Positions 14,789-19,692 of a stretch of DNA of 64,000 nt are shown in pieces. Location: contig NZ_CP133217.1 of assembly GCF_030930995.1 (NCBI RefSeq), positions 3,090,001 to 3,154,000 of the forward strand, in the 5' to 3' direction. Under the pieces are notes generated by a model. The model was not told the origin of the DNA. It was given only the letters and a program-made list of their open reading frames with translations, and ran no database searches. The first letter of the stretch is position 1. Each line of letters starts with the position of its first letter. This DNA comes from Thiothrix subterranea (GTDB lineage Bacteria > Pseudomonadota > Gammaproteobacteria > Thiotrichales > Thiotrichaceae). The translations under genes were made by a program, and so were the position numbers.

Positions 14789-14902
14789 TCCGGGTACTGA
14801 AAGAGTGTAAAGAAATGTAACAATGCTTCACGATATTGCCCTCTGGAACAAATAATGTTCACTGTTTTTATTGAACATTGTTTATTCAAAGAGGAAAGAG
14901 TC

Positions 14903-15886
14903 ATGACCCACATCCCTTTACCATCATGGGCTAAAGTAGCGTTTGCTGTCGCATTCACCAGTATGTTGTTAGCTTCCTGCGGAGGAAGTTCGAGCAGTAC
15001 GGTGACGACAGCAGGAACTACCACCACCGATACCACCACAGGAACGACGACAACGACAACCACGGCAATATCAACTCGTAGCTGGAAAGATGTGGCTTAT
15101 GCCACCACGTCAAACAGTCAAAAGATGGATATTTATTTACCAGCCACCGGCACGGGAACATTTCCAACAGTGATTTGGATTCACGGTGGTGCTTTCAAAT
15201 TCGGCGATAAAGCAAATCCACAATCCCTGACAGCCCTCAATAATGCCGGTTATGCCGTGGTCAGCGTCAATTACCGTTTGAGCACCGAAGCGCAATGGTC
15301 AGCACAATTGGATGACATGAAAAGCATTGTGACTTACCTGCGCACCAATGCTGCCACCTACCACTTGAACCCTGATAAAATTGGCGCTTGGGGCGCATCA
15401 GCAGGTGGACATTTAGCATCCATAATGGGAATCGCGTTAGCCAATGACCCTGCCACGCGCATTCAAGCAGCGGTAAATTGGTTTGGGCCAATCGACTTTT
15501 ACAACATGGATGCAGACATGCTGGCAACCAACGTCACCCGTTGTACCGGCGCAAACGGCGCGGCAGATTCGCCTGAATCCGCGCTGATCGGTGCAACTGT
15601 CAGTGAAAATAAAAGCAAAGCGGATGCAGCCAGCCCTTTGACTTATCTGGCAGCGTTGCCGACTACCACACCACTGCCACCGTTTTACATGTTTCACGGC
15701 TTGCTGGATTGTAATATTGCCCCTGCGCAATCAGAGCGTCTGCATAATGCGATTCAAGCTAAATTTGGCAACGCTAAAAGTAACTACATGCCTATCGCGA
15801 ATGGTACGCACGGTGCGGGTGATTTCAAACAAACTTACGTGGAAACCGCTGTTATCGATTTCCTAAATTTGCATTTAAAACAGTAA
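14903..15886 (+). CDS. Lipoprotein alpha/beta-hydrolase (carboxylesterase-like)
   Basis: About 327 residues from ATG 14903, chosen for the GAGGA upstream; the frame also opens at 14855. The N-terminus is a lipoprotein signal ending LLASC, then a Thr-rich linker of low complexity. The catalytic domain has the oxyanion HGGAF motif, the nucleophile elbow GASAGG, an Asp near GLLDCN and a His in GTHGAG, as in the hormone-sensitive-lipase-like esterase group. It probably hydrolyses esters at the outer membrane or in the periplasm; the substrate is unknown. A response-regulator gene follows 23 bases later, which may control it. Confidence 0.85.
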   Translation: MTHIPLPSWAKVAFAVAFTSMLLASCGGSSSSTVTTAGTTTTDTTTGTTTTTTTAISTRSWKDVAYATTSNSQKMDIYLPATGTGTFPTVIWIHGGAFKFGDKANPQSLTALNNAGYAVVSVNYRLSTEAQWSAQLDDMKSIVTYLRTNAATYHLNPDKIGAWGASAGGHLASIMGIALANDPATRIQAAVNWFGPIDFYNMDADMLATNVTRCTGANGAADSPESALIGATVSENKSKADAASPLTYLAALPTTTPLPPFYMFHGLLDCNIAPAQSERLHNAIQAKFGNAKSNYMPIANGTHGAGDFKQTYVETAVIDFLNLHLKQ

Positions 15887-15909
15887 GATCACGAGATACA
15901 GGCACGTTT

Positions 15910-16596
15910 ATGCATACCCTGCTATTGGTGGACGATGACACGAGTTTGCTGCACATGTTGCAGGCTTTTCTAACACAGGAAGGATTTCGCGTGTTAATCG
16001 CCACCAATGGCACGGAGGCGCTCAGTATGGTGGTGGAATTTGAGCCTGCCTTATTGGTGCTGGATTACATGATGCCGGGCTTAAACGGTATCGAAGTGCT
16101 AACCCTGTTACGGCAAAATCATGCCGTTCCCGTGTTAATGCTAACCGCCAGACATGATGATGCTGATCGTATCAAAGGTCTGGACATGGGAGCAGACGAT
16201 TACCTTGCCAAGCCGTTCAATGCGCGTGAATTAGTCGCTCGTATCCGCGCGATTTTACGCCGCACTGAAACGCGGCAGGCATTAACGCAACATTTGAGCT
16301 TAGGACGTTTGCAACTGTTTGCTGAACAAACCACCGCTTATTGGCAATCCACGCCACTCGTGTTGACGCATACAGAATACCGTTTACTGGAAATTCTGGT
16401 GCGGCAGGTAGGTTACGTTGTCAGCAAAGACGAAATGGCATTGTATGCACTGAAGCGTTCCTTAACCATTTTTGACCGGAGTATCGACGTGCACATCGGA
16501 CGCTTACGCACGAAACTGGATGACATCGCTGGAGACCGTTTGAGTATCCGCACGGTGCGGGCGCAAGGTTATCAATTGCTACTGTTACCCACATGA
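15910..16596 (+). CDS. OmpR-family response regulator (CpxR-like)
   Basis: A 228-residue regulator. The receiver domain (1-120) holds the acidic pair in LLVDDDT, the phosphoacceptor Asp in LVLDYMMPG, Thr in LMLTAR and Lys in LAKPFNAREL. The C-terminal winged helix (130-228) includes TEYRLLEILV and IDVHIGRLRTKL. Layout and wording resemble CpxR. It overlaps the following kinase gene by four bases (ATGA), so they form a two-component operon. Its position after a secreted hydrolase gene may point to envelope sensing. Confidence 0.93.
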   Translation: MHTLLLVDDDTSLLHMLQAFLTQEGFRVLIATNGTEALSMVVEFEPALLVLDYMMPGLNGIEVLTLLRQNHAVPVLMLTARHDDADRIKGLDMGADDYLAKPFNARELVARIRAILRRTETRQALTQHLSLGRLQLFAEQTTAYWQSTPLVLTHTEYRLLEILVRQVGYVVSKDEMALYALKRSLTIFDRSIDVHIGRLRTKLDDIAGDRLSIRTVRAQGYQLLLLPT

Positions 16597-17987
16597 GCCG
16601 CCTTTTTTGGAAAATTTTGCTGACATTTTGGTTGGCGTTGCTACTGCTGTTTGGCGTAGTTGGTGTCCCCTTTTTAGTACAACAGTGGCAGCTTCATACC
16701 TTGGAAGAAACCACCGTCGTGCATCCGATGTCGATTGTCGCCGTAAAAGCAGCCGCGCTCACTTTACAGCACGGTGGGACAGCCGCACTTACCGCGATGT
16801 TACGCGAACAGGATCAGGAAGCTCCCGCTGACATGCAAATCTACGCACTAGACAATGCTAATCAGGAATTATTAGGGCGCACGGTCGCGCCAACCGTAGT
16901 GGCACGATTACGCGCCGCAACACCGCTTAACCTGAGTTTTCCGGTGATGCGAGAAGTAGATCATGGCGGCAATACCTATCTATTGTTCGCCCCTTGGTCG
17001 GGGCAATTTCCCGAATTTGCCAACGTCCACCACTTGCGCATGAATAAAAAACACACCGCAGACGTACTGGTCATATTCAGCATTTTTGCTGCCAGCTTTC
17101 TGAGTAGCTGGGGATTGGCGTGGTATTTCTCTCATCCAGTCAAGCTTTTGAACAAGGCTTTTCAGACAATTGCAGATGGAGACCTGACCCGCCGTGTCGC
17201 ACAAGACATTGGTTCACGACGCGACGAATTGGCGGATTTAGGCAAAGGCTTTGATCACATGGCGACGCAACTGCAAAGCTTAGTGGAAACCCAACAACAC
17301 CTGATGGCATCACAACAGCGGCTCTTACACGATATTTCGCATGAATTGCGTTCGCCTCTCACCCGTCTGAATATGAGCATCGCCTTGGCACGACAGCAAC
17401 CTGCTTACCTGAATAAAAGCCTTCAACAAATTGAACAAGAAGCCGAACGGTTGGAATGTTTGGTCAATGAAGTACTCACACTGGCTCGCCTAGAAGCGGG
17501 TATATCCACCGACATGGATAGCTTTGTGGACATACGCTTACTGCTGCAAACATTGATTGAAACCGTTGAATTTGAAGCACTTGCACTGCAACGGCACGTA
17601 CAACTCATTCACGATTTACCTAATGAGGGCTATCTGATTCCGGGCAATGCTGAATTATTGTATCGTGCCTTGGAAAACTTGCTGCGCAATGCTATCCAGC
17701 ACACGCCACCGACTGGCACGGTGCTATTGCGTGTATCAGGCTACGCTTTGCCCAAAGCCCTGCAAATTGGCGTGGAAGATCAAGGCAGTGGCGTGTCTGA
17801 AACGGAATTGACCAGCATTTTTAAACCGTTTTACCGCCGCCGCACTCCGACAAACAGCAATAGCCATGAAGGATATGGTTTAGGCTTAGCGATTGCTTAT
17901 CGCGCCATTACTGCACACCAAGGCAGCATTATTGCCAAAAACCGTGAGGAAGGTGGTTTGGTTGTGCAAATAATACTGCCTTGCTGA
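16593..17987 (+). CDS. Membrane sensor histidine kinase (CpxA-like)
   Basis: A 464-residue kinase. It has two membrane segments (ILLTFWLALLLLFGVVGVPFL and VLVIFSIFAASFLSSWGLAWY) around a ~135-residue periplasmic sensor. A HAMP domain, the HisKA phosphoacceptor HDISHELRSPLTRL, and an ATPase domain with NLLRNAIQHT, DQGSGV and GYGLGLAIAYRAI follow. All catalytic boxes are present. It pairs with the overlapping response regulator. The stimulus is unknown; the CpxA-like architecture favours envelope stress. Confidence 0.93.
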   Translation: MSRLFWKILLTFWLALLLLFGVVGVPFLVQQWQLHTLEETTVVHPMSIVAVKAAALTLQHGGTAALTAMLREQDQEAPADMQIYALDNANQELLGRTVAPTVVARLRAATPLNLSFPVMREVDHGGNTYLLFAPWSGQFPEFANVHHLRMNKKHTADVLVIFSIFAASFLSSWGLAWYFSHPVKLLNKAFQTIADGDLTRRVAQDIGSRRDELADLGKGFDHMATQLQSLVETQQHLMASQQRLLHDISHELRSPLTRLNMSIALARQQPAYLNKSLQQIEQEAERLECLVNEVLTLARLEAGISTDMDSFVDIRLLLQTLIETVEFEALALQRHVQLIHDLPNEGYLIPGNAELLYRALENLLRNAIQHTPPTGTVLLRVSGYALPKALQIGVEDQGSGVSETELTSIFKPFYRRRTPTNSNSHEGYGLGLAIAYRAITAHQGSIIAKNREEGGLVVQIILPC

Positions 17988-17991
17988 CTGG

Positions 17992-19692
17992 CTACGTCTT
18001 CGGCAACGTAACCCCAGTTTGCCCTTGGTATTTGCCACCACGGTCTTTATAGGACGTGGAACACACTTCATCCGACTCGAAGAACAGCATCTGCGCCACG
18101 CCTTCATTGGCGTAGATTTTCGCGGGTAACGTCGTCGTGTTGGAGAATTCCAAGGTAACGTGGCCTTCCCATTCGGGTTCTAAAGGCGTTACATTTACGA
18201 TTATTCCGCAATTGTGGACGAAAACACCATTATCCAACGCAAAATTTCCCGCTTCAGGAACGGTCAAACAAAACACATCGTGATCACCTGCAACAGGACG
18301 AACATGTGTCACTTTATGGTTTTGCTGACCTTCACGGCTCACACCTCGGAACGCATCAATAATATGCGGGAAACGCCGGAATACAGCACGATCACATTCT
18401 AATAAACGTGCTGCTCCTCGAATTGATCCCGTTTGATGCAATGCCTCTTTCACGACTTCATCAGTAATCTCAGTGCGCAAACGCAAATTTCGCGCGAATT
18501 CAGCCTGACGTTGATGCCTATAAGGATTAGCTTGCTCCCAAACAGCTTTCATCCGTTCACCTTGCCTCACCCGCTCTGCATGATCCTGATAACGGGCAAG
18601 CATCGCCTCACGATGAGCCTGTCGAGTAGCATCCGAAGGATTGCAACGCGCTGTTAATAATTCTGCGCGTTGAGCAGCGTAAACATCATCGTGCCAGAAA
18701 CGACTAGCTCGTTCACTTTGCAAGCTAGAATAACGTTCTGCCCATTCAGGATTTTGCATACGCTCATGCAATGCGGCACGGATGGATGCACTGTGTTCGT
18801 CAGGGTCAAACTCCTCACCGTAGTTTTCCGCATTGTGCAGCCGAATATGCGCTCCGGCATCCATGCGGACAATGTTCCAAGGGTTATTATTTAAACGATC
18901 AATATCAACATGATGGCGATGGGTGTTTGGCGCATCAGCATACAAGCCATTTCGTAAATTCCACTCATCAGCCAAACGGTGCGTGGGATACAAATGCCCG
19001 TTCAACGGTTGGTATACCATTTCATAACCACGCGCCAACTGCCGATATAATGGCATCAACGACGCTCCCGGTGTTAATTCACCCGCAGCGATCCAACGCC
19101 CATCACGCAGCATAAACAAATGGTCAGGGGTAGCGAAAATACTTTTACCATTATCTAACCCAACTTCAATGAGGCTATCACGCCCCACATAACGCGGGGC
19201 TTCCAGTTGTGTCACAATCAAACGACCGTTTGCACCAATGCTATAACCCCAGAACAGTTCACCCTGCTCGGCACGTACTGTCATTTCTTCCAAGGTTGGA
19301 GAAGAGCCATCGACTAAAGCAACACGGGTATCACCGCGAAAACAACGCGCATACGTCGATTTCCCCAAACATACCACCAATGTGCTGCGTGGAATGCGGA
19401 AATACTCCACCGTCCGCGCCAGTGCAAACGAATTGGGCGGGATAATGCAGACATCACCTTTAAAATCCACAAAGCTCTTTTCGTCAAAGTTCTTCGGATC
19501 AACAATCGTGCTATTAATATTGGTGAAAATCTTGAATTCGTTAGCGCAACGCACATCGTAACCGTAGCTGGATGTGCCGTAGGATACGATCTTTTCGCCA
19601 TTCACAGAACGCACTTGCCCCGACTCGAACGGTTCAATCATGTTCGTTTCGATTGCCATGCGGCGAATCCAATGGTCGGATTTGATGCTCAT
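17992..19692 (-). CDS. dcd: dCTP deaminase precursor containing an in-frame intein
   Basis: The 566-residue frame is Dcd interrupted once. The exteins are residues 1-116 ([13 protein letters not shown] to GKSTYAR) and 495-566 ([17 protein letters not shown] to the end). Joined, they give a 188-residue Dcd of normal length, with the catalytic Arg region [10 protein letters not shown] restored only after splicing. Dcd deaminates dCTP to dUTP, feeding dTMP synthesis. The intein (117-494) sits directly behind the conserved active-site motif, so the precursor should be inactive until splicing. The start overlaps the end of the upstream LEA14-like gene by four bases. Confidence 0.96.
18211..19344 (-). 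mobile_element. Intein with HNH homing endonuclease in Dcd (378 aa)
   Basis: Precursor residues 117-494. Splicing block A is [13 protein letters not shown] with Cys1. Block B is [10 protein letters not shown] with the Thr-x-x-His pattern. The C-terminal blocks are [12 protein letters not shown], ending His-Asn before Cys+1. All four splicing residues are present, so the element should splice. Between them lies an HNH-type endonuclease ([15 protein letters not shown] to HIRLHN, precursor ~258-287) and a helical DNA-binding stretch with a helix-turn-helix-like segment ([21 protein letters not shown]). This makes it a potentially mobile large intein. Confidence 0.95.

Follow-up and report, generated by a model that had tools for sequence, protein, structure and literature searches.

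A probably mobile HNH intein at the active-site motif of dCTP deaminase in Thiothrix subterranea

The split dCTP deaminase gene and its intein

The window analyzed here, a stretch of 64,000 nucleotides from the genome of Thiothrix subterranea (G000), carries on its minus strand a gene for dCTP deaminase (Dcd) harboring an in-frame intein (Table 1). The two exteins are split after residue 116, in a stretch of 10 residues, and the C-extein (residues 495–566) opens with CGI. Their lengths add up to 188 amino acids, the predicted size of the spliced product and the one expected in the first-pass annotation. The 566-aa ORF matches the Pfam model DCD with 98.8 bits and the NCBIfam model dCTP_deam with 137.6 bits (cut-off 92.8), and residues 1–117 and 494–566 align with the solved Dcd of PDB 4dhk, in which both stretches are contiguous. 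The first-pass annotation had placed the intein at the GKSTYAR motif, and its boundaries proved to be exact to the base in the light of the translation, the Pfam and NCBIfam matches, and the alignment with PDB 4dhk.

Table 1. Position and anatomy of the split dcd gene and its intein in the window
Feature	Position	Strand	Basis
Dcd precursor ORF	17992-19692	-	566 aa to stop
N-extein of Dcd, residues 1-116, ends GKSTYAR	19345..19692	-	Translation, Pfam, NCBIfam, PDB 4dhk match
HNH intein, 378 residues, Cys1-Asn378 (ORF residues 117-494)	18211..19344	-	Translation, Pfam, NCBIfam, predicted fold
N-terminal splicing half, intein residues 1-100: Cys1, block B T72-P-D-H75	19045..19344	-	NCBIfam; C1, T72, H75 identical in all 46 rows
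HNH core, intein residues 141-175 (HRHH...NNNPWN...H...H), modeled as strand-strand-helix	18820..18924	-	PHROG, alignment, model
Helix-turn-helix-like stretch, intein residues 295-335, with a run of 22 residues	18340..18462	-	CL131 comparison, model
C-terminal splicing half, intein residues 342-378, ends VFVHN	18211..18321	-	intein_Cterm; N378 invariant
C-extein of Dcd, 72 residues from Cys495 (+1), plus stop	17992..18210	-	Translation, PDB 4dhk match

All the residues typical of class 1 inteins are present: C117, T72-P-D-H75 in block B (intein numbering), N494, and C495 at the +1 position. The Pfam model Intein_splicing scored 54.2 bits (cut-off 35.8), and the NCBIfam models intein_Nterm and intein_Cterm matched residues 117–194 (35.7 bits, cut-off 24.5) and 472–495 (26.1 bits, cut-off 15.6), respectively. 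In an alignment of 46 full-length rows, residues Cys1, T72, H75, H144, H145, N153, H166, H170, and N378 are invariant; the penultimate intein residue, which is a His in the window copy, is variable among the relatives. Matches of the endonuclease part with PHROG HNH families (1.5e-6 and 1.3e-5), the invariant His and Asn residues, and a predicted strand-strand-helix element in residues 141–175 (E141–145, E158–162, H163–175) bear out the HNH type previously assigned to the endonuclease. The Pfam model HNH_3 gave no match with the window protein (E up to 10); it matches 13 of the 47 aligned relatives, and Intein_splicing matches all 47. Pfam helix-turn-helix models match only 3–4 of these 47 relatives, and weakly; the helix-turn-helix stretch is likely to be the DNA-binding part of the endonuclease.

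The structure model based on the 46-row alignment had a mean pLDDT of 78.2 and a pTM of 0.44, which makes the placement of the domains unsure. The two ends of the intein are predicted to form a single beta-rich splicing domain (intein/Hint fold), and the model also has an extended helical linker and, at 295–332, short helices. Its best PDB matches (Foldseek) are inteins, namely NpuDnaE, Ssp DnaB, and Mtu RecA. The insertion is in frame in a conserved protein, uninterrupted alleles of which occur in relatives, and chance is not a serious alternative as the source of this architecture.

Since the splice join adjoins the Arg of GKSTYAR and the insert parts the residues of this motif, in which we take the Arg and the Ser to be catalytic as in E. 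coli Dcd, the unspliced protein is probably inactive. A single dcd match was found in G000, and no second one at E 0.001. The exteins are under purifying selection (dN/dS 0.006–0.033 in the six pairs among four close genomes), which suggests that the spliced product is made in the living cell. This constraint, the lack of a second dcd match at that threshold, and the presence of the splicing residues all argue against a non-functional insertion that would have left dcd broken in the window genome, and we give this explanation hardly any credence.

Distribution in the genus and transfer between species

Among 57 relatives, 51 have a dcd match and eight carry the intein, always at its full length of 378 aa; the fact that it occurs in frame at this length in eight genomes rules out a misassembly of the insert. 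In the genus, it is present in six of the 16 genomes, the other 10 having an empty dcd. The uninterrupted loci of the relatives all run straight through the insertion site (22/22), 20 of them reading YARCGII and two YARTGII. In these two loci (L014 and L015, from G008 and G015), the empty gene reads YAR-T-GI, with several changed bases located exactly at the intein site; the two genomes group together by dcd and are not sisters by rpoB, and their dcd may possibly be a homing-resistant or post-loss allele. In G005 (L019, L249, and L250), dcd is split over two frames near the 3′ end, owing to either a sequencing error or decay. A shorter intein (249 aa) occurs in L133, which belongs to the Thiotrichaceae according to its record title.

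The rpoB gene was found in 26 of the 27 genomes in which it was sought, and a tree was built with the 24 of these from which dcd was also fetched. The presence of the intein requires six changes on this tree, as compared with a mean of 6.9 when the labels are shuffled, and values as low were obtained in 145–148 of 500 shuffles. The intein is therefore no more clustered on the rpoB tree than by chance, although the test is a weak one, G000, G001, and G006 forming a single intein-bearing clade.

Table 2. Synonymous divergence (dS) of rpoB, the dcd exteins, and the intein in pairs of genomes
Pair	rpoB	Extein	Intein
G000-G001	0.074	0.460	0.083
G000-G004	0.968	0.656	0.110
G000-G006	0.431	0.377	0.087
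G001-G004	0.932	0.528	0.105
G001-G006	0.415	0.375	0.096
G004-G006	0.922	0.633	0.074
G000-G007	1.632	2.057	2.011

The synonymous divergences (Table 2) indicate that the intein has, in all likelihood, passed recently between related bacterial species. Vertical descent alone within the genus is ruled out by the dS values of G004 and G006 versus G000 and G001, but not by those of the pair G000–G001, in which the intein is as close as the genomes are and the extein is far more diverged. Taken alone, the intein of this pair would fit vertical descent, while the extein dS of 0.460, versus 0.074 for rpoB, points to the replacement of dcd sequence in one of the two genomes. The intein is not slow-evolving in itself, since its dS amounts to about 2 in the pair G000–G007.

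The exteins are mosaic in the genus. G004 is the same as G003 at synonymous sites in codons 1–29 (pS 0), and the two differ beyond codon 58 (pS 0.47–0.92), where G004 lies closer to the genomes with the intein, and also to the empty G012. In codons 87–140, which flank the site, pS ranges from 0.13 to 0.32 in the five recent-group pairs listed, which is above the range of 0.07–0.10 obtained for the intein, so that no long recent co-conversion tract shows; judging from these values, the co-conversion tracts seem to be short or to have since been overwritten. The flanking pS values reduce our confidence that the intein moves by homing, and it is possible that it has spread by ordinary recombination.

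Other rearrangements were observed at the 3′ end of dcd. In G001 (L068, 7670–8412), the intein-bearing gene is followed, after 618 bp, by a second dcd 3′ end of 125 bp, which is joined to the flank found in the empty relatives and is likely to be a recombination scar. In the window, the stretch beyond the dcd stop (14803–17991, encoding a hydrolase, a response regulator, and a sensor kinase) has the appearance of a sequence inserted at the dcd 3′ end, although a search of the window for another copy of that end gave none. G012 and G004 lack this stretch, whereas G006 has it and G008 retains a decayed form, with 17 bp of the dcd end repeated.

Alleles in other phyla and in phages

A scan of the genome_contigs collection (84,980 species) gave 185 pattern matches including 130 relatives, 79 loci of which were kept; L078, L079, and L120 among them probably correspond to G017, G030, and G007. 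The intein follows the YAR of Dcd in all 79 loci; the patterns contained the Dcd junction and thus favor the R|C site. Based on their record titles, the loci belong to about eight phyla, Pseudomonadota, Chloroflexota, Cyanobacteriota, Deinococcota, Planctomycetota, NC10, Acidobacteriota, and Elusimicrobiota, the last four being represented by one MAG each; two loci are unplaced. The Dcd inteins of Thiofilum flexile, Thiolinea disciformis, Macromonas bipunctata, Methylobacter, Chloroflexota, and cyanobacteria have the same site and architecture as that of the window, and the 45 locus rows of the alignment of inteins at this site are 55–82% identical.

Identities were compared in 56 full-length rows, 53 from the loci and three from members of the genus. 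Between phyla, the mean identity of the intein (0.608) is close to that of the extein (0.602), and the intein is the more similar of the two in 438 of 984 cross-phylum pairs; within phyla, the means are 0.643 and 0.802, respectively. The extein tree shows seven changes of phylum label, the least possible number, and the intein tree 10; both trees are quick searches without bootstrap, and that of the extein gave long-branch warnings. In even samples, the intein was matched at E 1e-20 in four of the 369 genomes from the class (G000 and G017 being among the four), and at E 1e-60 in at least 9 of 400 genomes of the phylum of Chloroploca and at least 5 of 386 of that of Trichormus, the center genome being included in both cases. 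The two phylum counts are lower bounds, four or five candidates having been scored per genome, and they are counts of matches irrespective of the host protein. In comparison with these samples, the genus is rich in the intein.

The 78 split loci comprise 53 full (374 aa or more), 4 medium (308–326 aa), and 21 mini (204–285 aa) inteins; the far end is missing from L130. The 25 shortened copies have kept both splicing halves and are reduced between the front of the HNH and the C-terminal splicing half; they show 23 gap patterns, some of which are clearly related (L144, L145, and L153), and many of them retain scraps of the HNH or the helix-turn-helix. This partial loss of the endonuclease region in 25 of 78 relatives raises the question as to whether the window intein might be a splicing-active passenger with a dead endonuclease, either inherited or spread by general recombination alone. 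The failure of HNH_3 to match the window protein is in keeping with this explanation, as is the fact that dcd is mosaic anyway, with no long co-conversion tract visible. However, the HNH residues are invariant in 46/46 full-length rows, and the HNH segment has a pN/pS of 0.034 in the recent group of four. All eight copies in the set of relatives are also full length, although the copy of L133, a different record, is shorter. The pN/pS values of the first splicing segment (0.332) and the helix-turn-helix segment (0.220) in the recent group, based on few sites, weigh against the reading as a mobile intein. A dead endonuclease is therefore rather unlikely.

In viruses, 80 of 123 relatives were kept, four of which (L155, L156, L157, and L198) carry a copy inserted at the R|C site of Dcd. 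In a fifth, L158, the intein is located elsewhere in Dcd, after LESEW; L196 was flagged by its motif and rejected, as its host does not look like Dcd, and the remaining viral loci have hosts other than Dcd. The intein of L155 is 54.5% identical to that of the window, and its neighbors match families of phage replication initiation proteins, DNA methyltransferases, sigma factors, and thymidylate synthases. Those of L156, L157, and L198 are about 36% identical to it, as is that of the cyanophage CL131. Phages are a plausible vehicle for the intein.

Four of the 79 loci, L143 (Chromatium okenii DSM 169), L136, L150, and L082, three of them MAGs, hold an extra intein that separates the K from the S of GKSTYAR and precedes the R|C intein by five residues. 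LAGLIDADG_3 matched the two K|S inteins that were scanned, those of L143 (72.1 bits) and L136 (69.1 bits), to which those of L150 and L082 are 44–52% identical. A third insert is present in L082, where it follows FEP, 12 residues past the R|C site, with intein-like ends and Pfam Hint and LAGLIDADG matches just under the cut-offs. Chromatium okenii LaCa (L140) carries an R|C mini-intein only. We tentatively suggest, with slightly less than even confidence, that the active-site region of Dcd acts as a hot spot for inteins, with four insertion points (K|S, R|C, after FEP, and after LESEW) in a span of about 20 residues, that two to three inteins are stacked there in some bacteria and must splice in a workable order across spacers of 5 and 12 residues, and that the R|C HNH intein is carried from one phylum to another by dcd genes of phages.

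Known Dcd inteins and the homing cycle

It was suggested in the first-pass annotation that an intein in Dcd might be new. This novelty is ruled out by two published cases: a Dcd with an HNH intein at the same site is described in those parts of a 2018 paper which deal with ORF069 of the cyanophage vB_AphaS-CL131, where self-excision in E. coli and a purified product of the spliced size are reported (PMC6293099), and an intein allele in deoxycytidine triphosphate deaminase, 'dtd', is listed for haloarchaea, its scattered distribution being ascribed to gene transfer in the passages available (PMC4071816). The allele was thus already on record for a phage, as far as the site is concerned (PMC6293099), although not for this bacterium. 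The CL131 intein is homologous to that of the window along its entire length, with an identical insertion site: the two share the Dcd host, the junctions YAR|C and N|CGI, the HNH, and a closely similar helix-turn-helix stretch, with 36% identity in the multiple alignment and 31.6% in a tblastn search with the intein, and that of CL131 differs in being located in a phage gene and having a shorter linker. The comparison with the haloarchaeal allele covers the host enzyme, which is the same, and its scattered distribution (PMC4071816).

Two other known sequences align over the entire intein: an intein-like ORF of Bacillus phage SP-15, annotated as hypothetical (25.5%), which is also the top viral fold match of the intein model, and the GyrB intein of Bernardetia sp. 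(30.1%), which has a different host protein. No paper on Dcd inteins of Thiothrix or other bacterial chromosomes was found among the papers listed from the open-licence literature (supplements excluded), and no Dcd intein is named in the portions available of papers on Desulfonema (PMC6390638) and Nostoc (PMC5987646) and of a prasinovirus review (PMC5371798). The Dcd intein at this site is therefore already known from a phage, and its range is wider than the literature found here tells.

We conclude that the intein at the R|C site of the window's dcd gene is probably a full-length homing intein of the HNH type, and a mobile one. The homing cycle has three states, corresponding to empty, full, and shortened alleles. 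The best reading is that of a selfish homing intein, every stage of this cycle being represented. Dcd and the intein would be translated together as a 566-aa precursor, from which class 1 splicing would excise residues 117–494, joining Arg116 to Cys495 and yielding an active Dcd of 188 aa. The HNH and helix-turn-helix unit would cut the empty dcd at the conserved coding sequence of a 10-residue stretch, and repair from the occupied allele would then copy the intein into the cut gene.

Whether splicing is conditional and gates the activity of Dcd, and hence the dUTP supply, under stress, an idea raised in the first-pass annotation, is a separate matter, as a regulatory intein of this kind would be compatible with mobility. 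The separation of the active-site residues by the insert, with the probable inactivity of the unspliced enzyme, and the single dcd match in G000 fit this possibility. On the other hand, 10 of the 16 genus genomes manage without the intein, which moves between species, and the homologous intein of CL131 is reported to yield protein of the spliced size when simply expressed in E. coli (PMC6293099). The scattered presence and horizontal movement of the intein do not call for such a gate, which we regard as very improbable.

Read as a homing intein, this apparent oddity becomes a case in which the homing cycle is well sampled: a single site occurs empty, occupied by a full intein, or occupied by a shortened one, inteins of low divergence are present in diverged genomes, and related inteins occur both in phages and in several bacterial phyla. 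The genus lends itself to measurements of homing, co-conversion, and resistance, and the Dcd proteins with two or three inteins provide a test of splicing across extein spacers of 5 and 12 residues.

Three further matches with intein N-termini were found in G000, in ORFs which were partly scanned: two in a DnaB ORF and one in a DnaE ORF (G000:C2:2468512-2470719 and G000:C2:1983948-1984178). At positions 257–760 of the window, a 257-bp unit is present in two head-to-tail copies with 97% matches.
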